Below, in pieces: positions 4,842 to 23,258 of a stretch of DNA of 64,000 bases. This DNA comes from Mucilaginibacter straminoryzae. GTDB lineage: Bacteria > Bacteroidota > Bacteroidia > Sphingobacteriales > Sphingobacteriaceae. Made by a program: the position numbers and the translations under genes. Where the stretch lies: the NCBI RefSeq assembly GCF_022953055.1, contig NZ_JALJEJ010000001.1:310001-374000 (forward strand). Direction: 5' to 3'. The notes under the pieces are model-generated. The model saw only the letters and a program-made list of their open reading frames with translations, ran no database searches and was not told the DNA's origin. The stretch's first letter is position 1; each line of letters opens with the position of its first letter.

Positions 4842-4901
4842 TGTCATTAATCCGGAGAAAATGATATTTGATTAATGTGTTAAAAATGAGTTAGATAGAT
4901 C

Positions 4902-4917
4902 GGGTTTGCCTTTTGCA
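4902..4917 (+). promoter_or_regulatory. Putative sigma-54 promoter c
   Basis: GGGTTTGCCTTTTGCA: a perfect -12 TTGCA with GG at the right distance, but a weak -24 flank. Predicted start near 4929, a few bases upstream of the MFS ATG at 4943. Confidence 0.6.
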
Positions 4918-4942
4918 TAGAACTCATTAAACTTTAACAGCA

Positions 4943-6169: not shown

Positions 6170-6180
6170 AAACGATTATA

Positions 6181-6414: not shown

Positions 6415-6457
6415 GGGCCGAAAATTCTCACCAGGGTTCCGGCAAAACAATATTACT

Positions 6458-7702: not shown

Positions 7703-7714
7703 GATATTAGGGAA

Positions 7715-7984
7715 ATGTCTGTTCAACTATGTAGCCATTTGCAGGATTTCAAGGAAATACCTGCGGATAAGTATTATTGCGAAGAATGCGTTAAAACCGG
7801 TAGTACCTGGGTACACCTGCGCGTATGCCAAACCTGCGGTGTAGTGCTCTGCTGCGACTCTTCGCCTAACAGGCATGCTTCTAAACATGCCGCGGCCAAA
7901 CAACACCCGGTAATTACGTCTGCAGAACCGGGCGAAGCATGGGCTTATTGCTTTGTGGATGACGTTTGGGTAGAACTGGGCTGA
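7715..7984 (+). CDS. UBP-type zinc finger protein
   Basis: An 89-residue soluble protein made almost entirely of one ZnF-UBP domain. Zinc ligands are visible as CSH near the N terminus, CEEC, CQTCGVVLCC, and His residues in NRHASKHA and QHP. In eukaryotes the domain binds ubiquitin C termini; in bacteria, which have no ubiquitin, it occurs alone or fused to TrxB-like FAD oxidoreductases. That fusion pattern fits its position just after such a gene here. Last gene of the MFS operon; its stop lies a few bases from the convergent kinase gene. Confidence 0.88.
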   Translation: MSVQLCSHLQDFKEIPADKYYCEECVKTGSTWVHLRVCQTCGVVLCCDSSPNRHASKHAAAKQHPVITSAEPGEAWAYCFVDDVWVELG

Positions 7985-8000
7985 TCCGCATCAGGCGGAT
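7984..8000. terminator. Short hairpin over two convergent stop codons
   Basis: ATCCGC pairs with GCGGAT across a 5-base loop, overlapping the 3' ends of the zinc-finger gene (plus) and the kinase gene (minus). No T-tract follows, so a terminator role is only possible. Confidence 0.3.
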
Positions 8001-10234
8001 TGCAGCACTGCCATAGCACTGCGGGCTTCGAAGGTTATTTTAATCGTCAGTCCGTTTTGGTTGATCAGTTCAAATGAACCTTCTAACTGGTCTGTGAGGC
8101 CGCGCATCAGGTTCATGCCTAACGAGCTGTTTTCATATTCGTCAAAACCAGCCGGCAACCCCGTACCGTTATCCGAAATTACTAAAGTATAATGGCCATC
8201 TCCAACGGCTTCGAGGATAATGCTAACCGTTCCTTTCCGTCCCTGCGGAAAGGCATATTTGATGGAGTTGGTGACAGATTCGTTCAGGATCAGCCCGAGC
8301 GGTACAGCCTGCGCAACATCCAGGCAAAGGGGTTCTGCGACTACATTGAAATTAATATTGTTCACCTCGAAACACTCCTTCATATAAGAAACCAGTTCCT
8401 GGATATACCAGCTTAGGTCAATCGTCGCCAGGTTGTCAGACTGGTAAAGTTTCTGGTGGATAAGCGACATGGCATGCATGCGGTGCTGGCTGTTTTGGAT
8501 AGCATCCATCGCATCCTGGTTGTTGATATAGGCAGACTGCGTATTTAACAGACTGATCACAATCTGGAGATTATTCTTTACCCGGTGGTGAATTTCTTTC
8601 AATAACCAGTCTTTCTCCTGAAGCAGTTTGCGCAGTAGCTCATTTTGCTTATTGATCTCCTGCTGTTGCTGTTGCAATTGGGCATGGCTTCTTTGCTTTA
8701 ACCTGTAGCGATTGTAAATAACCGCAAGCAGCACAAACAGCAGGAAGGCACATGCCGCAACAATTGCCTTAATGGTGCCGTCTTTTTTGATAGTTTCTGC
8801 CTGAAGTCCGTTCTTCTGTTTCAGCAGTAGGATGTTCTTGTCCTTTTGTGCTGTTTCGAACTGAATTTGCAGGTAAGATATCTGATTGGCCTTATCCGCG
8901 TTAAAAACAGAGTCCGAATAGGTTTTATATAATTTGTAGTGCTTAATTGCCGATGCAAGGTTATTGGTGGCAGAGTCTGCCTTGTACCATTGCAGTTCCG
9001 TGCGTGATAAAAACAGGTTGTTGCCGGCATCAAACTCAACCGACTTTTGCAAATACGGATAAACCTCTTTATACCGTTTTGTGGCAATCAGGTAACGGAT
9101 AATACCAGTATACAGGTAGGTTTGGTTAGGGTCGTCTCCGGCCAGTTTCTGGTGATAATCCATCAAAGTATTAAATATCGGTGCGGCTTTATCCAGCTTG
9201 CCCATTTCCATATAGGTGTTAAAGTAGATGTAGGGCACACGCAATTTCATTTGTATTTCAGTCGGCGGGTATTTCAGCCGGATCTCATCCAGTGCCTTCA
9301 GGGCTTCATTATATTTCTTTAGCCGCACGTAAGAGGTAGCCATGTTGGCCAGGATGGTTTGCATATAACCTGGATCATTATACCGCCGGGCCACATCTAA
9401 GGCCTTGTTCCAGGTATCCAGCGCTTGTTTATCCTGCTTCAGGAAATAATAGGTCATGGCCAGGTGGTTGTAAATAGAACTAAGCTGCAGGCTATAATCA
9501 CCCAATTCCTCGGCATTTTTGGCAGCCATAAACCCGTATCGTATCGATAGCGGATAATTCCCCATCTGCATATACACGTTACTGATGAGGTTATAAACCC
9601 CCTGCATTTCCCTGAAGTGGATTTTTTGATAAAGGGCCATAGCTTGTTGCAAATAACTAAGCGCTTCTTCGCCCTTTCCAAGCATATGATCATAATCTCC
9701 CAAAAACTTCAGCCCGGTAGCTTCTTCCTCAACAGCGCCTATTTCATGAAATAAGGCAATAGCCTTTTTTTCGAGCGCCATCTTGGCCTTCAAACCCTCG
9801 TTCTCATTGTCAAAGAATTGCAGTTGGGTTTCGTAAGCTTTCGCTTCATCATACTTCAGCTTTCTTTTAATGGAGAAATCAAGCGCTTCCTTAACTGATG
9901 CTGAAGCCTTTGCGCGGTCGCCGGCTTCTAATTGTATCCTGCCTTTAAGCAATATGGCTTTTGCCTGCATACTTTCGTCGCCGGTGCTTTTGCTTAATTG
10001 CAGTGCCAAGTTTTGAAAGTACATGGCGCTGTCCAAGTCGTTCTTTAACTCACCGGGTTTGGTCAGGTACTGTTCCCCTAAGCGCAGGTTCAGGTCGAGT
10101 TTCTCCTGATCAGAAGTTGCCGCCTTTATCTTCTTTCTCAGGTCCGGAATCTGATCGTGCCTGTTGGCAAGGGTAGTTGCAGGCGCAAGCAACAGCAACA
10201 AAATTAGCCTGGCGGACAAATTGCGAAGGGTCAT
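7991..10234 (-). CDS. TPR-containing sensor histidine kinase, HisKA_2 type
   Basis: 747 residues. An N-terminal signal sequence is followed by a long extracytoplasmic TPR region (about residues 25-450), one membrane helix (about 488-510), a Gln-rich coiled coil (about 520-540), an H-box EIHHRVKNNLQ (about 547-557) typical of HisKA_2 kinases, and an HATPase_c domain with N-box NESVTNSIKYA and G-box DNGTGLP. The family autophosphorylates and passes phosphate to a receiver domain. No response regulator is adjacent; the closest receiver in the island is the bEBP at 21318, so I infer that as a candidate partner. I found no convincing copy of the 18-bp enhancer in the 119 bp upstream. Confidence 0.88.
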   Translation of the reverse strand: MTLRNLSARLILLLLLAPATTLANRHDQIPDLRKKIKAATSDQEKLDLNLRLGEQYLTKPGELKNDLDSAMYFQNLALQLSKSTGDESMQAKAILLKGRIQLEAGDRAKASASVKEALDFSIKRKLKYDEAKAYETQLQFFDNENEGLKAKMALEKKAIALFHEIGAVEEEATGLKFLGDYDHMLGKGEEALSYLQQAMALYQKIHFREMQGVYNLISNVYMQMGNYPLSIRYGFMAAKNAEELGDYSLQLSSIYNHLAMTYYFLKQDKQALDTWNKALDVARRYNDPGYMQTILANMATSYVRLKKYNEALKALDEIRLKYPPTEIQMKLRVPYIYFNTYMEMGKLDKAAPIFNTLMDYHQKLAGDDPNQTYLYTGIIRYLIATKRYKEVYPYLQKSVEFDAGNNLFLSRTELQWYKADSATNNLASAIKHYKLYKTYSDSVFNADKANQISYLQIQFETAQKDKNILLLKQKNGLQAETIKKDGTIKAIVAACAFLLFVLLAVIYNRYRLKQRSHAQLQQQQQEINKQNELLRKLLQEKDWLLKEIHHRVKNNLQIVISLLNTQSAYINNQDAMDAIQNSQHRMHAMSLIHQKLYQSDNLATIDLSWYIQELVSYMKECFEVNNINFNVVAEPLCLDVAQAVPLGLILNESVTNSIKYAFPQGRKGTVSIILEAVGDGHYTLVISDNGTGLPAGFDEYENSSLGMNLMRGLTDQLEGSFELINQNGLTIKITFEARSAMAVLQSA

Positions 10235-10300
10235 GTTCTTTCTATTTTTTAAAAATCAGTTAAGGCGTTAACCGGCTATGGCGTCATCAAATGTAAATAA

Positions 10301-10325
10301 CTCTTCTCCCAAAAAGAGAGAAGAG
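10301..10325 (-). terminator. Probable terminator of the secreted hydrolase gene
   Basis: CTCTTCTC pairs with GAGAAGAG around a 9-base loop. Read on the minus strand it lies about 30 bp after the hydrolase stop and is followed by TTATTTAC, a short T-rich run. Confidence 0.5.
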
Positions 10326-10353
10326 CCTATATAATCGTTGCGGCGATATCTAA

Positions 10354-11133
10354 TTATTCGCCTGCGTTTGCGGCTGCTTCAATTACTGCTGCAACTGCTT
10401 TAGGCTGGGTCATAAATAACGTATGCCCGCCTTTTATGTCTGTCACTTTAGCTTTTGCGCGTTTATACATCGTATCTTCCAGGCCCATGTTAATGGTTTC
10501 ATCATTCGACGGTTTAACGGCGTAAACAGGTTTGTTCTTCCATGCCGCCTGTGTTACCTTATCTGTAAATGCTTTAACTGTAAGCGGGATCTGCGAATCA
10601 TACATAAAATCTGCCTTTTCTTTAGTTTGCCCGCTTGCAAAGGTTTCTAAAAAAGTGTCTTTGCCCAGGTAAACATTGCCTTTAGCATCCGGAGGTAAGA
10701 TGCCTTTAGGGGCGGGTTTTACATTTTCTACAAGTGACAGGGTAGATTCCCCTTCGTCCGGAATAAACGCGGCTACATAAACCAGGCTTTTCACTTTCGG
10801 ATGGTTGCCTGCCTGGGTAATTACTGTGCCTCCCCATGAATGGCCAACTAATACGGCATCATTATCCTGCCGGTCCAGCGCGTCATTGGTTGCAGTCACA
10901 TCATCCTGCAGCGAACTGGTTGGGTTTTGCACTAAAGTTACCTTGTAACCATCCTTCACCAGGATCTTATAAACGGCTTCCCAGCCAGAGGCATCCGCAA
11001 AGGCGCCATGCACAATCACAATGTTTTTTTTTTGTGCCGCAGGTTGTGCCTGGGAAGCTGCCGGAGCAATCATTGATAAAATAGCTGACGCAGTTGCAGC
11101 CAATGCTGCTTTAAATTTAGTTTGTGTTTTCAT
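10354..11133 (-). CDS. Exported alpha/beta hydrolase
   Basis: 259 residues with an N-terminal signal peptide ending near ASQAQP, so the enzyme is likely periplasmic or secreted. The body is a compact alpha/beta hydrolase: IVIVHGAFADASGW (oxyanion region), GHSWGG elbow (Ser 99) and GGHTLFMTQP with the catalytic His (237). It resembles the EstC/pyrethroid-esterase-like group often labelled simply alpha/beta hydrolase. It is transcribed from promoter d with enhancer d, and lies directly downstream (same strand) of the GAF-type bEBP gene but with its own promoter in the 147-bp gap. Confidence 0.87.
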   Translation of the reverse strand: MKTQTKFKAALAATASAILSMIAPAASQAQPAAQKKNIVIVHGAFADASGWEAVYKILVKDGYKVTLVQNPTSSLQDDVTATNDALDRQDNDAVLVGHSWGGTVITQAGNHPKVKSLVYVAAFIPDEGESTLSLVENVKPAPKGILPPDAKGNVYLGKDTFLETFASGQTKEKADFMYDSQIPLTVKAFTDKVTQAAWKNKPVYAVKPSNDETINMGLEDTMYKRAKAKVTDIKGGHTLFMTQPKAVAAVIEAAANAGE

Positions 11134-11162
11134 CTTTAGTCTGTTTTGGTTTCGAAAACAGA

Positions 11163-11178
11163 TGCTATTGATGGGCCA
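11163..11178 (-). promoter_or_regulatory. Putative sigma-54 promoter d
   Basis: On the minus strand it reads TGGCCCATCAATAGCA: TGGC at -24, TAGCA at -12, exact GG-to-GC spacing. It ends about 30 bp before the hydrolase start and lies 62 bp from enhancer d. Confidence 0.68.
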
Positions 11179-11239
11179 TTATTTAATATATTGATAATCA
11201 GGTTGATAATATCAATATTAATATCTTGAGATCACGCTA

Positions 11240-11257
11240 TACCGCCATTTTACGATA
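11240..11257 (-). promoter_or_regulatory. Enhancer (UAS) copy d
   Basis: In gene direction it reads TATCGTAAAATGGCGGTA, 17 of 18 positions matching the consensus. It sits just past the 3' end of the bEBP gene. Confidence 0.72.
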
Positions 11258-11280
11258 AGTGACTACCTGATTTACACTTT

Positions 11281-13440
11281 TTAAAAATGTTTCTTACTAA
11301 GACCAAGCCGTTTAATTTTTGAGTTGAGCGTAGTGGCCGGAACGCCCAGCAGTTTGGCTGCGCCCTGCTCGCCGCTAATGCGGCCGCTGCATAACTGCAG
11401 CACGGCAAAGATATGGTCGCGCTCGTTTTCGTCTATCGTTTTAACTTTTTGTGCAACACCGTCTTTATTTACTATCCGTTTTTCTTTAGGGGCAATGCCT
11501 AACTCCGTGATCTGATTTTTGGTAGCCAGCAAAACCAACCGCTCTATGGTATGCTCCATTTCGCGCACGTTGCCCGGCCACTCATAGCTGTTCATCTGTT
11601 GCAGCGCACGCTGGCTAAAGCCGGTGACCTGCCTGCCCGATTTCTGCGCATAACGGAAAAGGAAATGAGCGGCAAGCGCAGGGATGTCTTCTTTGCGGGA
11701 ACGTAATGGAGGAAGCCAGATTGGGAAGACGTTTAAACGGTAAAAAAGATCCCGGCGGAAACGGCCCGCCTCTACCTCGGCAGCCAAATCGCGGTTAGTA
11801 GCTGCGATTATCCGAACATCTACTTTGATGACGGTTTTACCGCCAACCCGTTCAATCTCTTTCTCCTGTAAGGCCCGCAGCAGCTTCACTTGCATATCTA
11901 ACGGTAGTTCGCCTATCTCGTCAAGGAACAATGTCCCTTTATCAGCCAGTTCAAATTTCCCTTCCCTGCGTTCGGTCGCCCCGGTAAAGGCACCTTTTTC
12001 GTGCCCAAAAAGTTCACTTTCGATCAGGTTGGGTGGGATAGCAGCACAATTAATTTTAATCATCGGCTGATTTGACCGCTTAGACGCCTGATGAATTCCA
12101 CGGGCGACAACTTCTTTCCCTGTCCCGGTTTCGCCGGTGATCAGCACGGTTGAATCTGTCGAAGCCACCTGTTCCATCAAGGCAATCACCCGTTGCATGT
12201 GTTTACCCCTGCCAATGATATCACTAAAATCTTTTGATTCAACTCTCAGGTCTTGGGTCGCGCTCAGCTTATTTTCGTATTCCTTTATCAACTGTTGCTG
12301 AAGGGCTGATTTTTCTGTCACGGCAAGGTTGTTGATCGCCGCAGAAACGAAGATGCCCAGTCGTTGTAACAGATGCAACAATTCATCCGAAAGTATTTTT
12401 GAGTCTTTTAAGCATACAATAAGATACCCTATTACCTCGTCCTGATGTTTGAGCGCTGTTGCAGCAACCCCATGCCGATTTAATTTATTTGCTCCAAGCT
12501 TGCTGATCAACGTTCCTTTGGCATCGCCTGAATCCAACAACAAGCCTTTACCTGCAGCGTTATCAATTTCTTTAAACAGGGTTTCTTCTGCGCTGAATTT
12601 TTCGCTTAGCAGTTGTTCTCTCTCCCCGTTCACATCTATGATGATGTAAGGATGAACCAGGTTTTCTTCGGCATCCTTTCGTAGTACAATAACACTTTCC
12701 GCTTTAAACAGCTCTGCTACTTCTGCAAGAGGTTGTGATAGTTCATCCCTTGAAGCTACCGCGGTCAATTTTTCCAGCAGTTTGTTAGGAAGAAGGTCTG
12801 TAGCTGTCTGTTGCCTTGCTTCTGCATGGGCTGAGGCAGAAATCTCTTTCAAATGTGGTAAATCTGTTGCTGAAAACAGGCCGCAATGTTCTTTATGCAA
12901 AAGATCTGTAAGAATGTCTGCAAGGCTGCTACAGAAAGATAAACATTCTGTACTGAGCGGATAGCTTAGATTATGCAGTTCAAAAGTACCCAGTACCTGG
13001 TTATTAAATTCGAGCGGGATATAGCAATGGTATTGGTATTCGCCTGTCTGGCCGGTTACGTGATGGTTTTCTCCCAGTTCTGCTACCCATTCGTCTTTGC
13101 TCTTCAACACCGGGAAGGTAAACCCGGCTACCTCTTTTTGAAAAGGTGTTAAAGCTGTTTGTACAGCAACTATTTGCTCGCAAATTTCTTCCGAAGCGGG
13201 ATCGAATGCGGAAACATAAGCCCGGCTAATGGTAGTTACTTTGCTATCGTAAACGGTTAATACACCGCAATCGATAGAAAATAGCGGATGCAGAATTTTT
13301 AAGATAGACTTAAACAGTTCAAACATCGGTACAAAGGGATCCGATTCGTGTTTGTTTAAACCATTCGCGATCTCATGGAAATCAGCGAGGCGTCGGGTAG
13401 AATGAGCTGAAGTGGTCGGCAACGGCACAATCATAATCAA
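11281..13440 (-). CDS. Sigma-54 enhancer-binding regulator with GAF-like sensor domains (bEBP1)
   Basis: 719 residues. The first ~390 look like two GAF-type sensory modules joined by helices, with no receiver domain. The AAA+ domain has Walker A GETGTGKE (~433), the sigma-54 contact loop GAFTGA (~480), Walker [10 protein letters not shown] and an intact arginine-finger region. The C terminus is a Fis-type helix-turn-helix with recognition segment [13 protein letters not shown]. Overall it is FhlA-like: a ligand sensed by GAF domains would release ATPase activity to open sigma-54 promoters. It has its own enhancer/promoter pair e, with a leader of about 375 nt, so autoregulation is likely. Confidence 0.92.
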
Positions 13441-13825
13441 ATAATTAAGTAGATGTAGTTAAAAAAATCACAGTGAATATTGTTTCGAAGCAAGCTCCTG
13501 TAAAACAACATGATACAGCTGCGAAAAGTAATTTAACGGGAAAATAGTCAATTAATTTAAAATTAAAAAAACAACAATTGACTTTCGGGGTATCAGCGCG
13601 AAATTAAGAATGCTGCATGTAAAGCACAAATAGTTGTGATCGAGGCAACCGGATGAAGAGTTTGTAATGCAAATAGAAGGGTATACTACGCTAACGGTAA
13701 ATGATTGAAAGAACTTGATAGACAACTGTATAACCTTGTAATAAGAGGTACTTGATACTTGTGATGTTTAGCTTTTTCATGATAAATGTTAGGAGGTTTA
13801 AATGTTATTTCATTGCCGAATAACT

Positions 13826-13841
13826 TGCCATGGATGTGCCA
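13826..13841 (-). promoter_or_regulatory. Putative sigma-54 promoter e (best match)
   Basis: On the minus strand it reads TGGCACATCCATGGCA: a perfect TGGCAC at -24 and TGGCA at -12, the closest of the eight to the canonical consensus. It is 63 bp from enhancer e and faces the bEBP1 gene. Confidence 0.78.
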
Positions 13842-13903
13842 GTGAATTAAAGCACTGATTTTTAATTAGTTAATACTGGTTGTGCGCTGGCCAGCCTGCG
13901 ATA

Positions 13904-13921
13904 TTTCGTTATTTTATGAAT
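13904..13921 (-). promoter_or_regulatory. Enhancer (UAS) copy e
   Basis: In gene direction it reads ATTCATAAAATAACGAAA, the most divergent half-sites of the set, but the core (TAAAATAACGA) is intact and it is at the expected distance from the best promoter. Confidence 0.6.
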
Positions 13922-14032
13922 AAGTGTATCCCCTTATACCAGACGGGTTTATGAGTTTAAATGACGTCATTGCGATAAAGTTTCGCCGAAAAAGAAAGCG
14001 ATGGGTTAATCGCTGAAGTGAAAACAAGTATT

Positions 14033-14050
14033 TATCGTGAATTAACGATA
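14033..14050 (+). promoter_or_regulatory. Enhancer (UAS) copy f (perfect inverted repeat)
   Basis: TATCGT and ACGATA are perfect inverted arms around GAATTA. This is the best dyad of the eight. It is 64 bp upstream of promoter f. Confidence 0.75.
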
Positions 14051-14113
14051 TATCATTAGTGGTAATTTAAGGTCTTTGTTTTTAAGTAACTGTAATACAA
14101 TAGTTTGTGTTGT

Positions 14114-14129
14114 TGGCATTTGGTTGGAA
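14114..14129 (+). promoter_or_regulatory. Putative sigma-54 promoter f
   Basis: TGGCATTTGGTTGGAA: perfect TGGCA at -24, but the -12 GC is GA. Predicted start near 14141, which rules out translation from the upstream in-frame ATG at 14105 and supports ATG 14159. Confidence 0.55.
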
Positions 14130-14158
14130 AGGTGGTGTTCAAACAAAAACTTTTAATC

Positions 14159-14791
14159 ATGAAACCATCTCCAGACTTACTGACACCCGAAAACCACGCA
14201 CTTGTACTGATCGACTTTGAAGGCCAGATGGCTTTTGCTACAAAAAGCATCGACATCAGCGCACTGCGTACCAATACTGCCATTATCTGCGGCGCTTCTA
14301 AAATTTTTAATGTAAGCACCATTGTAACTACCGTAGCGGAAGAAAGCTTCAGCGGACCGGTATTTCCAGAGATTGAAGAGTTTTATCCACAGGCTACTTC
14401 CAATTATATCGACCGTACAACCATGAATACCTGGGAGGATGAAGCTGCTTACAAGGCCATTACCGGTACCGGCAAAAAGAAATTAGTGTTAGCTGGGTTA
14501 TGGACCGGCGTATGTATTGTTGGTCCGGCGCTTTCTGCCCTGAGCGAGCATTACGAAGTATACGTAATCACAGATGCCTGCGGCGACGTTAGTCCCGAAG
14601 CGCATGAAAGAGCAATCCAGCGCATGGTGCATACCGGTGTTAAGCCAATCACTGCAGTTCAATACCTGCTGGAACTTCAGCGCGACTGGGCAAGACAAGA
14701 GACTTATGTAGCCGTAACCGACCTGATGAAAAAATACGGCGGCGCATACGGCGTAGGTATCCACTACGCACACCATATGTTAAATCACTAA
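14159..14791 (+). CDS. YcaC-like isochorismatase-family hydrolase
   Basis: A 210-residue cysteine hydrolase fold. The catalytic Asp is in LVLIDFEGQM, and the nucleophile Cys is in GLWTGVCIVGPAL. The strand before it (KKLVLAGLWTGVC) and the tail (LLELQRDW) match the YcaC subgroup rather than true isochorismatases, whose substrate is not settled. No signal peptide, so it is cytoplasmic. ATG 14159 is chosen because the -24/-12 element overlaps the longer alternative. It is the first gene of a seven-gene operon ending at 20511, with only 18 bp to the porin gene. Confidence 0.87.
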   Translation: MKPSPDLLTPENHALVLIDFEGQMAFATKSIDISALRTNTAIICGASKIFNVSTIVTTVAEESFSGPVFPEIEEFYPQATSNYIDRTTMNTWEDEAAYKAITGTGKKKLVLAGLWTGVCIVGPALSALSEHYEVYVITDACGDVSPEAHERAIQRMVHTGVKPITAVQYLLELQRDWARQETYVAVTDLMKKYGGAYGVGIHYAHHMLNH

Positions 14792-14809
14792 GAAGCAACT
14801 GCTATTCTG

Positions 14810-16210
14810 ATGTGTTCCCCAAGGATACTCAAAAAGCCAACTAGTGCCGGTGTTGTCCTGCTCATCACCGGGCTGTTGCTTTGTTTAAGCAATGCTTACG
14901 CACAGCCATTTAAGCTGATGCGGTTTGATGAGGATTACAGCTATCTGAAAGATTCATCGCGCAACTGGTACCGGCAATTTAAGTTTGTGCCGCTCTCGCC
15001 GGATGGTAATATATATGCCTCATTCGGCGGCGAAGCAAGGGCAGAGTTTGTTGCGTTCAACAACGAAGATTGGGGGCGCATGGGTATCGGGCACAACAAC
15101 TTCCTGCTCCAACGCTACGACCTGCATACCGACGTTCATTTTGGAAACCGTTTCCGTGTTTTCGGCCAAATCCGAAGCGCACTCGAAAATGGCCGGAAGA
15201 CGGGGCCGCGTCCTATTGATGAGGATAAGCTGAACATTCAGAACCTGTTTGCAGACGTTGTAGCCGTTAAAGAGGCAAAAACCAGCCTGACCTTCCGTTT
15301 AGGACGGCAGGAGTTAGATTATGGTAGCGGCCGGCTGATCTCCGTAAGAGAAGGACCAAACGCCAGGTTGTATTTCACCGGTGCGAAGGCAATGCTGGTA
15401 AAGCAGAACCTGCGGTTGGATGCCTTTGTGATGATGGCCGACACCGTCAATCCCGGTGCTTTTGATAATAAACCCAGCAAGCAGGCTAATCTGTGGGGCG
15501 GTTACGGTACACTGATTATCCCCCGTAGCGGCAACATCGATTTTTATTATGTCGGCATCCGTCGCGATACTTCGGTATTTGAAGCAGGGGCGGCAAAAGA
15601 GACCAGGCATACCATCGGTGGAAGGTTCTGGCGTTATGGCGGAGGCTTTATTTACAACCTGGAAGGGGCTTACCAGTTCGGTACGTTTGGCACTGGTCGC
15701 ATCAGTGCGTGGACGGGTTCCGCCGATATTGGATACTTTTTTGAAAACGCACCGCTAAAGCCATCTATCAACCTGCGGCACGATTATATTTCCGGTGATG
15801 CAAATCCGGGCGATAACCGCCTGGAGACCTTCAATCCTATTTATCCTAAAGGAGGATATTTTGGATTCAATCCGCAGATTGGTCCGGTTAACCTCATCGA
15901 TATACATCCTTATGCCACCATCAAAGCCGGTAAACAAGTTACCGTACAGGGCGATGTGGTTTTCAACTGGCGCTACTCGCTGAATGATGGTGTGTACCGC
16001 CCAAGCGGAACCTTTAATATGCCGGGAGAAACCTCCCGAAAAAGGTATATCGGGACCGCCTATCTACTGAGCGCCGTTTGGCAGATCAATAGTTTTTTAA
16101 GCCTGAACCAGGGAATCCAGTATTTCAGTACAGGCTCGTTCGTGCACGATGTAATTCCTAATCCCCATGATGGATTATTCATTAATACCCGTATAGCATT
16201 TAAATTTTAA
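14810..16210 (+). CDS. Alginate-export-type outer-membrane porin
   Basis: 466 residues with a signal peptide ending at NAYAQ. The mature protein has alternating beta-strand patterns, a C-terminal aromatic (IAFKF) typical of outer-membrane barrels, and the segment GRQELDYGSGRLISVREGPN, which is the hallmark of the alginate-export (AlgE-like) domain family. Family members form a monomeric barrel with an anion-selective pore. Nothing else in the window makes alginate, so I infer a channel for small anionic substrates or products handled by the neighbouring hydrolases. Confidence 0.8.
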   Translation: MCSPRILKKPTSAGVVLLITGLLLCLSNAYAQPFKLMRFDEDYSYLKDSSRNWYRQFKFVPLSPDGNIYASFGGEARAEFVAFNNEDWGRMGIGHNNFLLQRYDLHTDVHFGNRFRVFGQIRSALENGRKTGPRPIDEDKLNIQNLFADVVAVKEAKTSLTFRLGRQELDYGSGRLISVREGPNARLYFTGAKAMLVKQNLRLDAFVMMADTVNPGAFDNKPSKQANLWGGYGTLIIPRSGNIDFYYVGIRRDTSVFEAGAAKETRHTIGGRFWRYGGGFIYNLEGAYQFGTFGTGRISAWTGSADIGYFFENAPLKPSINLRHDYISGDANPGDNRLETFNPIYPKGGYFGFNPQIGPVNLIDIHPYATIKAGKQVTVQGDVVFNWRYSLNDGVYRPSGTFNMPGETSRKRYIGTAYLLSAVWQINSFLSLNQGIQYFSTGSFVHDVIPNPHDGLFINTRIAFKF

Positions 16211-16229
16211 CCTATAAATAGTTACAATT

Positions 16230-16961
16230 ATGAAACCAACCCCACTTTTTAAAGCCGTGAATACCGGTTCGTTTATTCGCCGTATTTTCAATACCCTTGT
16301 TTTTACCGCTTTTGTAAGCTTATCATACGCCCAGACACCGCTGGGTACCACTAAAGTATTCGGCAGTATAGATGGCGTAAGTATAGCGGGTAAGGTGCAA
16401 AGCCCATCAGGGCAGGCTACGCCTTTACAAGTAGTATGTCTGTTTGAATATACCGAAGGCGACCTGACCTCGCCAACAGCTTTACCTGAAAACCTGAACG
16501 GCATGGTACACGTAGATAAAGCCCTGCGCGGGCTGATTACCGATCTGCGTAAGAGCGGAAAGTTTGCAGGCCATGCTTATGAAACGCTTTTAATTACCCC
16601 GGCTCCGGGTACCATCCCTGCGAAAAAACTTTTATTGATCGGCCTTGGCGACCGCACTAAATTCTCTGCTGACCTGATGACCGATATTGGCCGAATTGGT
16701 ATGCGCGAAGCTTTACGTTTAGGAGTGGACAGCTATTCGCACGCCAGCGATCTTAAAGATGCTGGTATAGATTCGCCTACCGGTCCCGTGGCGCAAAATG
16801 TAGTTAAAGGTGCTATGGAGGCTTACGAAACTGATCTGTACCTGCACCAGAAAGGCATGGCGCCTGCACCTAAAGTTAAAAAGGTAACGCTATTGGCCGG
16901 TCCGGCTTTCTTTACGGTTTCCGGCGAAGCAATAGAAGCCTATATCAAATCAAGAAAATAA
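16230..16961 (+). CDS. Exported lone M17-type N-terminal domain protein
   Basis: 243 residues with a signal peptide ending near LSYAQ. The body resembles the N-terminal macro-like domain of leucyl aminopeptidases (LLLIGLGDRTKFSADLMTDIGRIGMREALRLG), followed by a short tail. The metal-binding catalytic domain of M17 peptidases is absent, and no remnant of it follows before the amidohydrolase gene 11 bp later. It is therefore unlikely to be a peptidase; ligand binding is possible. Its presence as a secreted stand-alone domain is odd. Confidence 0.7.
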   Translation: MKPTPLFKAVNTGSFIRRIFNTLVFTAFVSLSYAQTPLGTTKVFGSIDGVSIAGKVQSPSGQATPLQVVCLFEYTEGDLTSPTALPENLNGMVHVDKALRGLITDLRKSGKFAGHAYETLLITPAPGTIPAKKLLLIGLGDRTKFSADLMTDIGRIGMREALRLGVDSYSHASDLKDAGIDSPTGPVAQNVVKGAMEAYETDLYLHQKGMAPAPKVKKVTLLAGPAFFTVSGEAIEAYIKSRK

Positions 16962-16972
16962 ACGGCGCGGTT

Positions 16973-18895
16973 ATGAGATACGCAGACACCATACTGTATA
17001 ATGGGAAGATCCATACGGTAGACCCAGATCTACCGGCGGCTACAGCAGTTGCCATTGCAGACGGAAAGTTTATCGCGATAGGCGATGATGCTGCCATTAT
17101 CAATCAATATGCAGGGGATGAAACGCAGGTGATAGACCTAAAGCAAAAGCGTGTAGTGCCAGGCATTAATGATTCGCATACGCATTTGATCCGCGGAGGG
17201 CTGAATTATAATTTGGAACTGCGCTGGGACGGTGTGCCCTCTTTGGCAGATGCCCTGCGAATGTTAAAAGAACAGGTTGACCGTACGCCCTCGCCGCAAT
17301 GGGTACGGGTAGTGGGCGGCTGGAGCGAGTTCCAGTTTGCCGAGCGCCGCATGCCGACACTGGACGAGATTAACACGATTGCCCCAGACACGCCGGTATT
17401 CATCCTCCATCTGTATGACCGCGCTTTGATGAACCGTGCCGCACTACGTGCCGTAGGGTATACCAAGGATACGCCTGCGCCTCCGGGTGGCCATATTGAG
17501 CGCGATAGCAATGGCGAGCCAACGGGTTTAATCATTGCCACGCCTAATGCCATGATCCTGTACTCTACCCTGGCTAAAGGGCCCAAGCTTTCCTACGAAC
17601 ACCAGGTAAATTCTACTCGGCATTTTATGCATGAATTGAACCGATTTGGTATTACCAGTGTGATAGACGCAGGCGGTGGTTTCCAGAATTTCCCGGACGA
17701 TTATAAAGTGGTGAATGACCTGCATGAGGCCGGACAGCTTACGCTACGTATTGCCTATAACCTGTTTACCCAACGCCCAAAGCAGGAGTTTGAAGATTTT
17801 GATAACTGGACAAAGACGGTTAAGGTACACCAGGGAGATGACATGTACAGGCATAACGGCGCAGGCGAAATGCTGGTTTTCTCAGCCGCTGATTTTGAAG
17901 ACTTTCTGCAACCCCGGCCAGATCTGCACGAGAACATGGAAGCAGAGCTGGAGCGGGTGGTGCGCCTGTTGGTAGAAAACCGCTGGCCGTTCCGCTTGCA
18001 CGCAACCTACAACGAAAGCATTGGCCGTTTCCTAAATGTGTTCGAGAAGGTAAACCGGGACATACCTTTCGACGGACTGCATTGGATATTCGACCATGCG
18101 GAAACGATTGACGAACGCAATATAGAACGTGTAAAAGCTTTAGGCGGCGGGATTGCTATTCAAAGCCGGATGGCTTACCAGGGCGAATACTTTACCGAAC
18201 GGTATGGTACCGAAGCAGCTTTGAACACCCCTCCAGTGAAGAAAATGATTGCTGAAGGTGTTCCCGTTGGCGGCGGATCTGATGCTACCCGCGTAAGCAG
18301 CTATAATCCCTGGGTGTCTATGTACTGGCTTACGGCCGGGAAAACGGTAGGCGGTTTACAGCTTTATAATGAACAGACAAGGCTAAGCCGCGAAACAGCG
18401 CTCGAACTATACACCAAAGGCAGCGCCTGGTTCAGTAGCGAACAGCAAAAGAAGGGGATGATCAAGGCTGATATGCTGGCCGACCTGACGGTGTTAGACA
18501 AGGATTACTTCCACGTAACGGATGAAGAGATCAAAAGCATCGAAGCTGAGCTGACCATAGTAGGCGGCAAGATTGTGTATGCCAAAGGCGATTTTTCGAC
18601 TTTCGCCCCACCAACTATTCCTATCCTGCCGGATTGGTCGCCTAGCAAAATTTACAATGGTTACTATCCGGGATCCGGCTTCCTGGCCGATGCGCAGTCG
18701 AGGCAGGCAAAGGCGGTAGCTCAAAAGCATAATTCGGCGCTACAGCAATTGCAGGTGGCCAATGCCATTCACCAATGTATAGGCAGTTGCCATGTGCATG
18801 GGCACGACCATAATTCGGCGCGAATGAGCAATGTACCTGTAAATAATTACACCACATTTTGGGGCGCGCTCGGCTGCTCCTGCTTTGCATTTTAA
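16973..18895 (+). CDS. YtcJ-like amidohydrolase with Cys/His-rich tail
   Basis: 640 residues, amidohydrolase_3 group. The N-terminal strand domain (ILYNGKIHTVDP) is followed by the metal motif NDSHTH, a further His in FRLHATYN, the HWIFDHAETI segment and the GGSDATRVS region with the catalytic Asp. Such enzymes hydrolyse C-N bonds, often in formamides or cyclic amides. Unlike typical members it ends in about 75 extra residues rich in Cys and His, including CIGSCHVHGHDH and GCSCFAF, which look like a metal-binding tail. No signal peptide. It lies in the enhancer-driven operon. Confidence 0.85.
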   Translation: MRYADTILYNGKIHTVDPDLPAATAVAIADGKFIAIGDDAAIINQYAGDETQVIDLKQKRVVPGINDSHTHLIRGGLNYNLELRWDGVPSLADALRMLKEQVDRTPSPQWVRVVGGWSEFQFAERRMPTLDEINTIAPDTPVFILHLYDRALMNRAALRAVGYTKDTPAPPGGHIERDSNGEPTGLIIATPNAMILYSTLAKGPKLSYEHQVNSTRHFMHELNRFGITSVIDAGGGFQNFPDDYKVVNDLHEAGQLTLRIAYNLFTQRPKQEFEDFDNWTKTVKVHQGDDMYRHNGAGEMLVFSAADFEDFLQPRPDLHENMEAELERVVRLLVENRWPFRLHATYNESIGRFLNVFEKVNRDIPFDGLHWIFDHAETIDERNIERVKALGGGIAIQSRMAYQGEYFTERYGTEAALNTPPVKKMIAEGVPVGGGSDATRVSSYNPWVSMYWLTAGKTVGGLQLYNEQTRLSRETALELYTKGSAWFSSEQQKKGMIKADMLADLTVLDKDYFHVTDEEIKSIEAELTIVGGKIVYAKGDFSTFAPPTIPILPDWSPSKIYNGYYPGSGFLADAQSRQAKAVAQKHNSALQQLQVANAIHQCIGSCHVHGHDHNSARMSNVPVNNYTTFWGALGCSCFAF

Positions 18896-18906
18896 CAGTA
18901 GAAATC

Positions 18907-19350
18907 ATGACTATCAATCAAATTATTCACCTCCTGCTGTTTTCAGATGCCGGCAGCCGGATCAATAACTGGGCGCTGCTTTTTTTCAGGGTGTTCATCG
19001 GTTTTGAACTGTTTAGAGTTCACGGCCTGAAGAAGTTTAAAGTAGAGAACGGGCAGCGCGAACATGTGCCTAATCCGCTCGGTCTGCCAGATAAGCTTAA
19101 CGGGTTGATCGCCACGTTTTCAGATACCGTAGTGCCCTTTCTGCTGATGCTGGGGGTAGCCACACGGCTGATCCTGCTACCCGTAATGGGCGTTACCAGT
19201 ATCGGGTATTTTGTGGTACACCGGCATGATTCTGTCGAGGTAAGGGATGTACCCTATATGTATACCCTTTGTTTCCTGTTTCTGCTTATTATTGGGCCGG
19301 GAACTGTTTCAATCGATCATTATTTACTCAATCAATTTTTCACACTTTAA
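18907..19350 (+). CDS. DoxX-like membrane protein
   Basis: 147 residues with about four membrane helices. ATG 18907 is chosen because it follows the amidohydrolase stop by 11 bp and starts the hydrophobic protein; an extension to 18859 would overlap that gene. The pattern (LLFFRVFIGFELFRVHGLKKF, later VPFLLMLGVATRL) fits the DoxX superfamily, whose members are small inner-membrane proteins linked to quinone or sulfur redox and oxidative stress. Exact activity is unknown. Confidence 0.75.
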   Translation: MTINQIIHLLLFSDAGSRINNWALLFFRVFIGFELFRVHGLKKFKVENGQREHVPNPLGLPDKLNGLIATFSDTVVPFLLMLGVATRLILLPVMGVTSIGYFVVHRHDSVEVRDVPYMYTLCFLFLLIIGPGTVSIDHYLLNQFFTL

Positions 19351-19361
19351 TTATAGTACTT

Positions 19362-19835
19362 ATGGAACCTAAAATCGGAATAACTGCAGAGAACCTGAAA
19401 GCAGTTGCACATGCGCTTAACCACATCCTGGCTGATGAATTTGTACTTTACGCTAAAACACGTAACGCACACTGGAACGTAGAAGGGCCTGATTTTCATA
19501 GCAAGCACCTGTTCTTCGAAAGCCAGTACGAGCAACTGGACGAGATTATGGATAGCGTTGCCGAACGGATCAGGTCACTTGGCCACTATGCACCTGCAAC
19601 TTTAAAAAGCTTTTTAGAGCTGACCCACCTTTCTGAAGTACTGCATGAGAAGAACGACGGTACCGGCTTTGTAACCGAACTGCTGAACGACCATGAGAGT
19701 ATCATTATGAAACTGCGCGAACAAGTGAACTACTTTGCCAATGAGTTGAAAGATGCCGGTACCAGCGATTTCGTAACCGGGCTGATGGAAACTCACGAAA
19801 AAATGGCCTGGATGCTCCGCGCGCACCTACGTTAA
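19362..19835 (+). CDS. dps: Dps-family DNA-binding/ferritin-like protein
   Basis: 157 residues, standard Dps length. ATG 19362 gives the normal N terminus and lies 11 bp after the DoxX stop. The ferroxidase region is visible as KTRNAHWNVEGPDFHSKHLFFE...YEQLDEIMDSVAERIR, with the His, Asp and Glu ligands of the inter-subunit site. Dps dodecamers oxidise Fe(II) with peroxide and store iron, protecting DNA under oxidative stress. Its place in a sigma-54-type operon rather than under OxyR or a stationary-phase control is notable. Confidence 0.93.
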   Translation: MEPKIGITAENLKAVAHALNHILADEFVLYAKTRNAHWNVEGPDFHSKHLFFESQYEQLDEIMDSVAERIRSLGHYAPATLKSFLELTHLSEVLHEKNDGTGFVTELLNDHESIIMKLREQVNYFANELKDAGTSDFVTGLMETHEKMAWMLRAHLR

Positions 19836-19839
19836 CCAT

Positions 19840-20511
19840 ATGGAAAGCTCGAAGAACATCTGGTATATCTCTATTTTGCTGAGCGCCGTGGCGGGTTATT
19901 GTGATACCGTTACTTTTGTTGCGGCAGATGCGGTATTTTCTGCACATGTAACCGGTAACTTTATTCTGTTTGCGTACCAGATTGTTAAACACACAGATGC
20001 TACGGCATGGATAAAGCTGCTCACTTTTCCGGTGTTTGTACTATCCGTGATTGTTGGCGGAAGGCTTGGCAAGGATCCGGAAAAGCGTTACAACCTGTTG
20101 TTTACCGAAGGTTTGATGCTGCTACTGGCGGGAGGTTTGGCCGCATTGATTGCCTTTTACTGGGATTTTCCCTGGGGTAAGCATTTAGTAGCCATGATCA
20201 CTGTAGCAGCGATGGGCTTGCAGAATGCGTTCGGGAAGCTTTATGCTAAAGAAACCTTTGGCCCCACCACCATGATGACGGGCAACGTCACCCAGGCCTC
20301 TTTAGATCTGGGCGCGGTAATTACTTCTGCCTTTACAGATACCCTTGGTTTGGCCAGCCTTAAAAAAAGCGGCGCTACCATATTTGGTTTTCTGGGTGGC
20401 TGTATTGCCGGGGCTGTGCTGGCAAAATATGTTGGGTTGCACGTTTTAGTGCTGCCCGGGTTTGTTTTATTGGGTTGTTACCTACTTTCAAAAAGGGCAG
20501 CGAATGCTTAA
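19840..20511 (+). CDS. DUF1275 (YoaK-like) membrane protein
   Basis: 223 residues with about six membrane helices. The N-terminal AGYCDTVTFV and VFSAHVTGNFILF, and the later NAFGK...PTTMMTGNVTQ, are the two signature loops of DUF1275. The family is widespread with no firm function; a transport or membrane stress role is inferred. Last gene of the enhancer-f operon, followed by a strong bidirectional terminator. Confidence 0.87.
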   Translation: MESSKNIWYISILLSAVAGYCDTVTFVAADAVFSAHVTGNFILFAYQIVKHTDATAWIKLLTFPVFVLSVIVGGRLGKDPEKRYNLLFTEGLMLLLAGGLAALIAFYWDFPWGKHLVAMITVAAMGLQNAFGKLYAKETFGPTTMMTGNVTQASLDLGAVITSAFTDTLGLASLKKSGATIFGFLGGCIAGAVLAKYVGLHVLVLPGFVLLGCYLLSKRAANA

Positions 20512-20526
20512 ATAGGAAGAAATAAA

Positions 20527-20558
20527 AAAGGGAAAGCGCGTATAGTGGCTTTCCCTTT
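20527..20558. terminator. Bidirectional terminator
   Basis: AAAGGGAAAGC pairs perfectly with GCTTTCCCTTT (10-base loop). A-rich sequence precedes and T-rich sequence follows, so it can end both the seven-gene operon and the convergent small gene. Confidence 0.85.
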
Positions 20559-20564
20559 CATACA

Positions 20565-20882
20565 TTAATATTTGGTAGTACGATCTATGGTTAACTTTGC
20601 GATCATATCAGCGTTTAGCGCAGTTGCATAGGTGCCAAAGGCATCAACTAATAAACCTTTCACACCTTCGTCAGAACTGATAGCATAAAGGATCTCGTTG
20701 TCTTCGGGATCGGTTGCCCCTTCGAAGCGGAACACGCCATCCACATGGAAATCGCCGGGGGATAGGCTTAGGTTAAGTTCGCTGCAATAAATGCTTTCGG
20801 GGTTGAGGTTGAAATTGTACTGGTAGCCTTTGGCGGTAAGGTCTGTTATGGCTTCAGATAAAGTGTCGTAAACAGTGTTCAT
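20565..20882 (-). CDS. Small conserved Bacteroidota protein, function unknown
   Basis: 105 residues, acidic and soluble, no signal peptide. It has YDTLSEAITDLTAKGYQYNFNL at the start and FRFEGATDPEDNEILYAISS in the middle. I recall proteins of this size and pattern in Bacteroidota, some labelled as phosphoribosylpyrophosphate synthetase; nothing here supports that, since it is far too short and has no PRPP motif. It is the only gene transcribed from enhancer/promoter pair g, so it is a dedicated member of the proposed regulon. Confidence 0.75.
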   Translation of the reverse strand: MNTVYDTLSEAITDLTAKGYQYNFNLNPESIYCSELNLSLSPGDFHVDGVFRFEGATDPEDNEILYAISSDEGVKGLLVDAFGTYATALNADMIAKLTIDRTTKY

Positions 20883-20911
20883 GATCTTAAAATTTGAGTT
20901 CTGAATACCGG

Positions 20912-20927
20912 TGCTAAATCTGATCCA
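20912..20927 (-). promoter_or_regulatory. Putative sigma-54 promoter g
   Basis: On the minus strand it reads TGGATCAGATTTAGCA: TGG at -24 and TAGCA at -12, with correct spacing, 62 bp from enhancer g and about 30 bp from the gene start. Confidence 0.65.
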
Positions 20928-20988
20928 AACACCAAATCGCAGTGATACAGTGATTTAAGTATGGTTTAAAGAATATCAGGTTACGATT

Positions 20989-21006
20989 ATTCGTTCATTT
21001 ACGATA
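20989..21006 (-). promoter_or_regulatory. Enhancer (UAS) copy g
   Basis: In gene direction it reads TATCGTAAATGAACGAAT, with the first half perfect. Confidence 0.68.
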
Positions 21007-21039
21007 AAAACCGGGTAACTGAAGCCATGGCGTTACAGG

Positions 21040-21057
21040 ATAGGTAAATTGGCGAAA
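21040..21057 (+). promoter_or_regulatory. Enhancer (UAS) copy h
   Basis: Reads ATAGGTAAATTGGCGAAA. Both arms are degraded but the core TAAATTGGCGA is kept. It ends 62 bp before promoter h. Confidence 0.58.
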
Positions 21058-21118
21058 TATCGTAAAGGATGTTGGTTGATAATTGATGTAATGTTTTGTT
21101 TATCAATTATTTAAATAC

Positions 21119-21134
21119 TGGTATTGATATTGTA
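21119..21134 (+). promoter_or_regulatory. Putative sigma-54 promoter h
   Basis: TGGTATTGATATTGTA: TGG at -24 and TTG at -12, with T in place of the -12 C. Predicted start near 21146, leader about 170 nt to the bEBP2 ATG. Confidence 0.55.
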
Positions 21135-21317: not shown

Positions 21318-23258
21318 ATGAAAGAGAGTATTTTAATTGTTGAGGATGAATTTATTGTTGCCAACGATCTTCGGATAATGCTGGAAAAGGCGGGCTACAA
21401 GGTTTGTGGAATTGCGCCTTCTGTAGCCAAAGCTTTAGACCTGATCAAGGCCAAGAACCCGAATTGGGTATTGCTGGATATTTTTCTGCAGGGCGCCAAA
21501 ACCGGGATCGATCTTGCCGGGCAGTTGAGGGAGATGAATATTCCTTTCATTTATATCTCGGCAAATACTAACCAGGCCATCCTCGAGGCAGCAAAAGCAA
21601 CCGAACCGTATGGCTTCCTGGTGAAGCCCTTCAGGGAGAAAGACCTGTTGGTAATGTTGGATATTGCCCAGTACAGGCACGAGCAGGGGCAAAAATTGGT
21701 GAAGCCGCAGGAAATTTCTCTGGCAGACCAGGTGGGACTGATTGCCCAGAAAGCGGAACAAAGAGATGAAAAGCTGAAGCAGGTAGCGCAGGTACTTCAA
21801 TCATTTATTCCGTTTGATTGCCTTGCCATCACCCGTAAAGATCAATCGTTTGATAGCTTCAGTTTGTACCTGATCAAAAATTCGCTCAACATATTTAAGG
21901 CTTACCCGGTAAGCGAATTATTGGAAGATACAGGCATATCGTTGCGCGATTACCGCTCGGCCAAGAACAATTTGAACGAAAGCGGAAACCATTTTTACAA
22001 CAATTTCGATTTCCGCCGCCTTAAAATGGATAGCCTTTGGATCAAGGCTTTAAGCGATCATTATCAATACCAGTCTACCCTGATTTTTAATGTCTCGGCT
22101 TCGGACCGGTATACCTATGCTTTTCAATTTTTCAGTAAGGGAGCTGACAGCTATAACCAGTTGCAGATAGACATCTTGAATAAAAATCAGCAGGTGTTTG
22201 CTGCGATCGTTGACGAAATCGTCTTGAAAAAGGATGAAGAAGTTAAGGTAGTGAAAGACCGCCGCCCGATTACACCGTTAGTTTCCGGTGAAGCTGCTGT
22301 TAGCGATTTTCATGGCATTGTAGGGCAAAGCCCGTTACTCAAAGCGGTATTCCGGAAAATTGAGATCGTTGCCCCGGATGATACTTCAGTGCTGGTATTG
22401 GGCGAGAGCGGTACAGGTAAAGAACGGATTGCTGCGACTATCCACAAGCTTTCGCCCAGAAAAAATAAGCCGTTGGTGACTGTTAACTGTGCGGCGCTAC
22501 CCTTGACCCTGATTGAGTCTGAACTATTCGGGCATGAAAAAGGGGCTTTTACCGGTGCGACCGAAAAACGTGTGGGGAAATTTGAACAGGCGGATGGCGG
22601 TACCATCTTCCTGGATGAAATTGGTGAACTGCCCCTCGACTCGCAGGTGAAGCTGCTACGTGTTTTACAGGAGAAAGAAGTGGAGAAGCTGGGCGGTAAC
22701 GGTGTAAAGAAGATCAACGTCAGGATTATTGCGGCAACCAACCGTAACCTGGAGAAAGAAGTAGCCGAGGGACGTTTCCGCCTGGATCTGTATTACCGCC
22801 TGAACGTATTCCCGATTGAACTACCAACCTTAAGGCAGCGGAAAGAAGACATCCCGCTTCTCGCTAACTACTTTCTTCAAAAATTAGTGAAGAAGAACCA
22901 ACGGCCGGTAACCGGCTTTTCTGCGGATGCGCTGGAAACATTAATGAATTACGATTGGCCCGGGAATGTTCGGGAACTGGAACACCTGATCGAGCGTAGT
23001 CTCTTAATGGCTACAGGGGAATTGATCGAGCAAATCGAAATACCAGTTATCAGGGGTGCTGTCGCAGGTATGGAGGATAACAACTTCCGGATCAAAACCA
23101 TGGAAGAAATGGAGCGCGATCATATCCTGGCGATACTGACGCTTTGCAAAGGAAAAGTTTTTGGCCCCGGTGGTGCTGCCGAACTGCTGAACATCCCTTC
23201 AACTACGCTCAATTCGAAGATCAAAAAGCTTGGGATCAAGTATGAATTTGTGAAATAG
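21318..23258 (+). CDS. Sigma-54 enhancer-binding response regulator (bEBP2)
   Basis: 646 residues. Residues 1-120 are a receiver domain with acidic pocket VEDE, phosphoacceptor Asp 54 (VLLDIF), YISAN and VKPF, so it should accept phosphate. Residues 130-320 form a GAF-like spacer. The AAA+ domain has Walker A GESGTGKE (~361), GAFTGA (~408) and [10 protein letters not shown]. The Fis-type HTH ends in [13 protein letters not shown], almost identical to bEBP1. I infer that both regulators recognise the same 18-bp sites, one by phosphorylation and one by a ligand. No kinase is adjacent; the TPR kinase at 7991 is the candidate. It probably controls itself through pair h. Confidence 0.92.

Follow-up and report, generated by a model that had tools for sequence, protein, structure and literature searches.

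What could bring a cysteine hydrolase, an outer-membrane channel, a lone peptidase N-domain, a metal-dependent amidohydrolase, two membrane proteins and a mini-ferritin together in one closely packed row of genes? The question is raised by a locus of Mucilaginibacter straminoryzae, analysed here within a stretch of 64,000 nucleotides (the window; contig NZ_JALJEJ010000001.1, positions 310,001–374,000), in which seven genes follow one another: ISO (a YcaC-like hydrolase of the isochorismatase family), ALG (a channel of the alginate-export family), M17N (an N-terminal domain of the M17 family), AMID (a YtcJ-like amidohydrolase), DOXX (DoxX family), DPS (a Dps-type mini-ferritin) and DUF1275 (a YoaK-type membrane protein). 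The answer favoured here, with confidence evenly divided, is that the operon is induced to serve detoxification or a stress response and forms part of a regulon.

Conserved gene order across the Bacteroidota

The seven genes share the forward strand and are separated by gaps of, in order, 18, 19, 11, 11, 11 and 4 bp, with products that match the Pfam families Isochorismatase, Alginate_exp, Peptidase_M17_N, Amidohydro_3, DoxX, Ferritin and DUF1275, each above its own cut-off. An earlier note on this DNA had described these families as a tightly spaced seven-gene operon, and the families, their order and the exact coordinates (14159–20511) hold, with all gaps in the range 4–19 bp.

Gene order was compared over 21 Bacteroidota loci possessing both ISO and AMID, made up of the window, ten loci found with M17N that have AMID close by, nine found with ISO and one of Ferruginibacter paludis (L001) that a genome-contig scan turned up; sister loci were read as 20-kb stretches and M17N loci without operon genes (L015–L021 and L041) were left out of this count. 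The complete order ISO-ALG-M17N-AMID-DOXX-DPS-DUF1275 occurs at 13 of the 21 loci, the window included, and is present in three Bacteroidota families (f1, f22 and f26). Four further loci keep the order with losses (M17N in L054, M17N and DPS in L057 and L058, DPS in L061), bringing the same overall order to 17/21, and the other four (L001, L043, L059 and L060) share a second arrangement with ISO next to AMID and ALG elsewhere nearby, this separate ALG being accompanied by M17N in three of them. The earlier note had named an unconserved gene order, together with absent co-expression, as what would count against the operon, and the first of these did not occur. Because the order is conserved the observation amounts to more than chance and, judged from sequence, the operon is a real and repeatedly conserved unit; a chance neighbourhood is ruled out on the same ground.

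Presence of the genes is linked as well. Among 149 genomes of the genus, ISO was matched in 11 and an operon-type AMID (≥73% identity) in 10, all of them within the 11 ISO-bearing genomes (Fisher p 1e-14, with relatedness ignored), while 14 further genomes possess only a shorter AMID, 50–55% identical. One complete-order operon is in decay (L062; genome G869, contig C1, about 1.498–1.504 Mb), with AMID split over two frames and a short ISO whose match covers residues 1–114 only.

The earlier note also had the operon ending at a single terminator. One hairpin does follow DUF1275, with an 11-bp inverted repeat and a 10-nt loop when read by eye; its T run is short and the hairpin was unlisted by the terminator scan, which admits loops ≤8 nt. 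That scan returned 9 terminator hits against a shuffle mean of 8.8, i.e., no excess, and its sigma-70 part likewise stood in no clear excess.

Candidate composite promoter and neighbouring genes

Absent from the earlier note are two sigma-54 activators, REGu and REGd, that flank the operon, and related genes that lie upstream. The Sigma54_activat domains of REGu and REGd score 256.7 and 241.7 bits, both translations contain GAFTGA, the loop motif of sigma-54 activators, and their C-terminal helices are nearly identical by reading. The genome also encodes RpoN (PF04552, 192 bits).

Upstream of the operon, a palindrome, TTACGAWATATCGTAA, sits 67–71 nt ahead of a sigma-54-like −24/−12 element. 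A TGG(C/T)A element starts 38–60 nt before the ISO start in 12 of 17 loci, and the best −24/−12 matches before ISO have p <0.05 against dinucleotide shuffles in 11/17 (combined p 2e-10 on the assumption, which does not hold, of independence among the 17 loci). The palindrome, some 70 nt upstream of this element, reaches a match equalled by ≤5 of 500 shuffles in 9/17 loci. When both elements were sought at spacings of 30–130 over the 17 loci, 27 pairs fell at 67–71 nt compared to 41 over the other 96 spacings, nine of the latter at spacings 81–83. This composite lies directly before ISO in 11/17 loci (the window and 10 of the 16 others) and, in L022, L036 and L042, before the gene next upstream of ISO.

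The same pairing recurs around the operon. Across the whole window there are eight pairs at 67–72 nt (mean of 100 shuffles, 1.29; maximum, 5), with 0–4 pairs in each of the other six-wide spacing bands, and all eight lie within positions 3,478–21,134, before the alpha/beta hydrolase genes ABH286, ABH272 and ABHm, an MFS transporter gene, REGu, the operon, a gene of unassigned family (HYPm) and REGd (Table 1). Under stricter criteria, exactly two of the 47 window frames of ≥150 aa had a composite, ISO and ABH272. As the motif was derived from ISO upstream regions, independence from the motif choice applies to the other seven window sites only; the composite thresholds were chosen after the window sites had been seen. 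Read in this way, the shared composite promoter supports predicted co-regulation of the operon with further genes.

A 12-mer form of the palindrome occurs at 33 distinct places in the genome, five of which fall in the window. Two own-genome regions picked by the palindrome contain the composite, which precedes a pyruvate-oxidase-like gene, a TPR kinase gene and a 101-aa gene. The pyruvate-oxidase-like gene lies on contig C12 (L073:5765–7504, minus strand) and the TPR kinase gene that shares the composite is its neighbour; by sequence, composites at these two genes suggest a wider regulon.

Within the window, the composite assigned to REGu lies 385 nt before the called start of the gene (the interval 13441–13825), which could mean that the leader is long, that the gene starts earlier or that a small gene lies there. 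ABH272 resembles non-heme chloroperoxidase L and arylesterases, is 80–82% identical to hydrolases of L014, L037 and L040 and 51–60% identical to those of two alphaproteobacterial clusters (60% over 168 residues). TPR histidine kinases adjoin most of the sister operons. HYPm, matched by no Pfam or NCBIfam family, accompanies the operon and is found directly before ISO in L037–L040 and L042.

Table 1. Features of the operon and its surroundings in the window. Where two intervals are given for a composite promoter, the palindrome is listed first and the sigma-54-like element second.
Feature	Position	Strand	Basis
ABH286, alpha/beta hydrolase; composite 3548–3563 / 3478–3493	2531–3391	−	promoter scan
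ABH272, alpha/beta hydrolase; composite 3771–3786 / 3839–3854	3905–4723	+	1a88, E 1.1e-117
MFS transporter; weaker composite 4834–4849 / 4902–4917	4943–6169	+	promoter scan
Thioredoxin-reductase-like flavoprotein after the MFS gene; without its own composite, membership uncertain	6335–7702	+	
TPR histidine kinase (HisKA_2)	7991–10234	−	
ABHm, alpha/beta hydrolase, signal-like N-terminus; composite 11232–11247 / 11163–11178	10354–11133	−	
REGu, sigma-54 activator, weak GAF match; composite 13896–13911 / 13826–13841	11281–13440	−	Pfam, promoter scan
Palindromic upstream site of the operon, TAACGATATATCATTA	14043–14058	+	promoter scans
Sigma-54-like −24/−12 element of the operon, TGGCATTTGGTTGGAA, 71 nt after the palindrome start	14114–14129	+	weak alone (p 0.0975)
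ISO, YcaC-like isochorismatase-family cysteine hydrolase, 210 aa	14159–14791	+	PF00857, 81 bits
ALG, outer-membrane channel, alginate-export family, 466 aa	14810–16210	+	PF13372, 202.5 bits; signal peptide by eye
M17N, lone M17 N-domain protein, N-terminal signal sequence, macrodomain-like, 243 aa	16230–16961	+	PF02789, 38.2 bits; model; Foldseek
AMID, YtcJ-like metal-dependent amidohydrolase, 640 aa	16973–18895	+	PF07969, 446.3 bits
C-terminal Cys/His tail of AMID, residues 602–640, CIGSCHVHGHDH ... GCSCFAF	18776–18892	+	motifs; outside the Pfam match 52–536
DOXX, DoxX-family membrane protein, 147 aa	18907–19350	+	PF07681, 35 bits
DPS, Dps-type mini-ferritin, 157 aa	19362–19835	+	PF00210, 93 bits; PDB 8ff9, E 1.6e-30
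DUF1275 (YoaK-type) membrane protein, 223 aa	19840–20511	+	PF06912, 113 bits
Terminator-like hairpin between DUF1275 and convergent HYPm	20527–20558	.	read by eye
HYPm, 105 aa; composite 20981–20996 / 20912–20927	20565–20882	−	promoter scan
REGd, response regulator with sigma-54 activator domain; composite 21050–21065 / 21119–21134	21318–23258	+	Pfam, promoter scan

Active sites, folds and the Cys/His tail

Residue conservation was counted over hits >500 bits for AMID (n = 39) and >250 bits for ISO (n = 29). In AMID, where the Amidohydro_3 match far exceeds its gathering cut-off (29.7 bits), H69, H71, H343, H375 and D437 are conserved in ≥95% of the sequences, and these we take to be the metal ligands of the amidohydrolase superfamily. 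ISO D19, R86 and C119 are conserved to the same degree (≥95%), and the active site described for YcaC consists of Asp19, Arg84 and Cys118 (PMC4519933).

The last 39 residues of AMID form a tail that contains at least four Cys and three His, its first Cys/His motif being found in 33/40 loci and its second in 34/40. Both motifs are absent from L001, L043, L059 and L060, which have the short AMID type, and from L071 (Streptomyces), and L070 (Priestia) has the second motif only; the miss in L062 is uninformative, as only an N-terminal fragment was tested there. Owing to this distribution, the full tail is shown in Bacteroidota and Pseudomonadota only. A PDB search with the tail gave chance-level matches and no credible relative.

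The tail introduces a different account of the operon, in which it and the DoxX protein bind copper or zinc and the genes serve metal handling. Retention of the Cys and His residues at 33 of 40 loci agrees with such a role, as does the match of DOXX to HvfX, a maturation protein of copper-associated ribosomally synthesised and post-translationally modified peptides, although at 45.1 bits the match does not reach the cut-off of 80. Set against it, no metal transporter or metal regulator occurs among the named neighbours and the tail may merely stabilise the enzyme, making metal handling as the purpose of the operon very improbable.

Among the other products, DPS has Dps proteins as relatives in the PDB and scores 80.8 bits against the Dps equivalog, below the cut-off of 114, and ALG carries the AlgE-type domain. 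The M17 N-terminal domain of M17N exceeds its gathering cut-off of 23.4 bits, and the PF00883 catalytic domain had no match in the protein or in the whole genome, bearing out the view of the earlier note that the N-domain stands alone; the idea that M17N is half of a split aminopeptidase was rejected because the genome lacks PF00883. The predicted structure (mean pLDDT 80) resembles M17 N-domains and macrodomains in Foldseek (8pz0, E 1.5e-10; TM by query length about 0.5–0.57), with some SPX-domain entries also ranking high. By eye, the window M17N has a signal-like N-terminus and two proteobacterial M17N frames have no signal peptide. M17N could thus act as an exported, macrodomain-like binding protein and not as a peptidase, given the lack of a catalytic domain.

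Matches to M17N were found in 10 of 60 relatives (own genome included), in 3/395 class genomes, in 31/149 genus genomes and in 13/395 phylum genomes, nine of which were counted as lone M17N and four of which (E about 1e-4, long frames) were taken as full-length M17 enzymes and not counted. The 18 M17N loci, read in two sets, divide into nine with the complete operon, one with a partial operon (L043) and eight with M17N alone. As M17N often occurs away from the operon (8/18 loci, and 31 genus genomes versus 11 for ISO), the exported M17N family appears to have an independent existence. The L041 copy contains a stop codon.

Relatives on plasmids and in other phyla

A tblastn search of 72,556 plasmid records matched AMID over ≥80% of its length in 456 records and ISO in 583, led by rhizobia and Pantoea. 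In 19 plasmid loci, picked from the hits and not a random sample, AMID accompanies an isochorismatase-family gene in 16 and DoxX is present in 13 (one weak, L046), with ALG in four, M17N in two, Dps in one and DUF1275 in three, plus YoaK by annotation in two more. The order ISO-XapX-AMID-DoxX-MFS is found in Niveispirillum, Sinorhizobium, a Ti plasmid and Rhizobium etli, and the literature searched gave no function for such clusters. Its presence on the Ti plasmid (pTiFPH-AT4, L067) and on rhizobial plasmids (L066 and L072) is a hint of plant compounds, and DUF1427 (XapX) was once reported as confined to plant-associated bacteria (PMC554113).

Other loci combine the families differently. Novosphingobium EMRT-2 possesses AMID-glyoxalase-DoxX-ALG-YoaK without ISO, Burkholderia stagnalis has YoaK, a divergent hydrolase, XapX-AMID-DoxX and ALG, and Klebsiella, Priestia, Streptomyces and Rahnella have simpler sets, the last with AMID but no ISO. 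Clusters of six of the seven families lie on a plasmid of Rhizobium sp. AB2/73, where Dps is missing and ALG, cut by the end of the stretch, reaches only 49 bits, and on a plasmid of Novosphingobium PP1Y, which has no DUF1275 and carries Dps on the opposite strand. The M17N proteins of these clusters are divergent (Rhizobium versus window, 27.7% identity; Novosphingobium versus Rhizobium, 29.5%). The enzyme core of YcaC-like cysteine hydrolase, metal amidohydrolase and, often, DoxX is thus found on proteobacterial plasmids and in reduced form in Bacillota and Actinomycetota, and is probably a module spread among soil and plant bacteria by horizontal transfer. Efflux genes adjoin relatives of the operon.

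These distributions bear on whether the operon might answer stationary phase or oxidative stress in general, with no specific compound, Dps, DoxX and redox genes being central and the hydrolases repairing damaged metabolites. Dps in 14 of the 21 Bacteroidota loci and the composite before a pyruvate-oxidase-like gene fit such a role, but the operon is rare, unlike core stress genes, with ISO in only 11 of the 149 genus genomes, and not every operon has Dps and almost no plasmid locus does, the anchor being AMID. A general stress operon is on balance improbable.

A catabolic operon is a stronger candidate, if still an unlikely one. Here the compound would enter via ALG and be broken down by AMID, ISO and the alpha/beta hydrolases to yield nitrogen or carbon under sigma-54 control. 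Several nitrogen pathways are controlled by sigma-54, hydrolases predominate in the gene set and some plasmid relatives adjoin genes for catechol dioxygenase, an ATP-binding cassette (ABC) transporter or histidine ammonia-lyase. E. coli ycaC is, in addition, tied by prediction to nitrogen regulation in one text, which gives no function for it (PMC9068703). On the other side, the 21 Bacteroidota loci lack a conserved central catabolic enzyme, as far as the queries could name genes, and Dps, DoxX and the pumps suit protection better.

Proposed function

Detoxification is preferred because the conserved set consists of hydrolases, a channel, Dps and DoxX, with pumps adjoining its relatives, because no central catabolic enzyme is conserved within the reach of the queries, and because the operon is sporadic and often found on plasmids. 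Several observations weigh against this reading and the control proposed with it. The −12 of the window operon reads GA, its element not being significant alone, no composite precedes ISO in L056 or L061, and L039 has one only before ABH272. The palindrome by itself is not enriched genome-wide (43 matches versus 51 for a backward control), and of the four own-genome regions fetched for it two have no composite. Some operons do without DPS or M17N, both of which are rare in plasmid loci, and there are the catabolic genes beside some relatives. These last neighbours, together with the restriction of the full tail to two phyla, keep confidence in detoxification no higher than even and that in the broader synthesis below slightly under it.

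In the mechanism proposed, the seven genes would be transcribed as a single unit and would share a sigma-54-dependent regulon with both activators, HYPm, the MFS transporter and the alpha/beta hydrolases (2.5–23.3 kb). The TPR kinase, the N-terminal domain of REGu or both may sense stress or a compound, upon which the activators would bind TTACGAWATATCGTAA and, as read from the sequence, drive sigma-54 polymerase at the −24/−12 element about 70 bp downstream. A small organic compound might pass the outer membrane via ALG, or be expelled by the MFS transporter, and the alpha/beta hydrolases, AMID and ISO would cleave ester- or amide-type bonds; their families and active-site residues are evident, while substrate and order of steps are conjectural. 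Dps and DoxX, to go by their families, would limit redox and iron damage. Plant- or microbe-made compounds are the most likely targets of the enzyme core. The suggestion of the earlier note that transport and degradation of a small compound are combined with oxidative protection fits the parts (channel, hydrolases, Dps and the upstream MFS gene), with a putative substrate, direction of transport and link to oxidation.

A broader synthesis is held with slightly less than even confidence as a whole: a multi-phylum detoxification module of Cys/His-tailed amidohydrolase (the tail binding metal), YcaC-type cysteine hydrolase and DoxX, whose Bacteroidota version would be a regulon under sigma-54 that comprises eight or more transcription units, with a palindromic enhancer fixed 70 bp from the promoter and with an added channel and exported macrodomain-like protein. 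Seven loosely annotated genes would in this way become a single system open to test, for which a switch and a regulon are predicted and the distribution points to soil and plant chemistry, and a common context would be provided for families whose role is not known (YcaC-like hydrolases, DUF1275, XapX and lone M17 N-domains). A narrow query of the open-access literature found no paper on sigma-54 in Bacteroidota, for which the locus would supply an activator site and promoter layout.

Comparison with known systems

No published description of this gene set was found by title or listing in the open-access literature, and description elsewhere is possible; searches there on XapX/DUF1427, sax genes and the Xanthomonas and Bradyrhizobium names gave no result, nor did one on a putative P. 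aeruginosa counterpart (PA2418–PA2421).

At the level of single proteins, YcaC (P. aeruginosa 4wgf, E. coli 1yac) is the nearest solved relative of ISO and shares the active-site Asp, Arg and Cys, but ISO scores 126.5 bits against the YcaC equivalog NF041461, which has a cut-off of 310, and the neighbouring genes differ. AMID has the full-length domain of the YtcJ-like amidohydrolases, with the HxH and later His/Asp residues kept, and departs from them in its extra conserved tail; the nearest solved full-length relatives, 3igh and 3icj, are weak matches. M17N shares its fold and Pfam family with the N-domain of leucyl aminopeptidase, yet has no catalytic domain in protein or genome and, in Bacteroidota, is predicted to be exported.

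The regulatory arrangement resembles sigma-54 activator and enhancer systems of the NorR, PspF, RtcR and NtrC type in its activator domain, adjacent activator genes, distant palindrome and candidate −24/−12-like element, whereas REGu and REGd reach none of the respective equivalog cut-offs, and to our knowledge the palindrome and regulon match no known sigma-54 system. The Pseudomonas sax genes, directed against plant isothiocyanates, offer a possible likeness: they reportedly pair an isochorismatase-type hydrolase with efflux genes in plant-associated bacteria. The rhizobial ISO-XapX-AMID-DoxX-MFS clusters differ from the operon in possessing XapX, in having AraC- or LysR-type regulators nearby with no sigma-54 activator clearly associated, and in usually being without Dps or M17N, but they hold ISO, AMID and DoxX in the order of the operon, sometimes together with ALG, DUF1275 or M17N.

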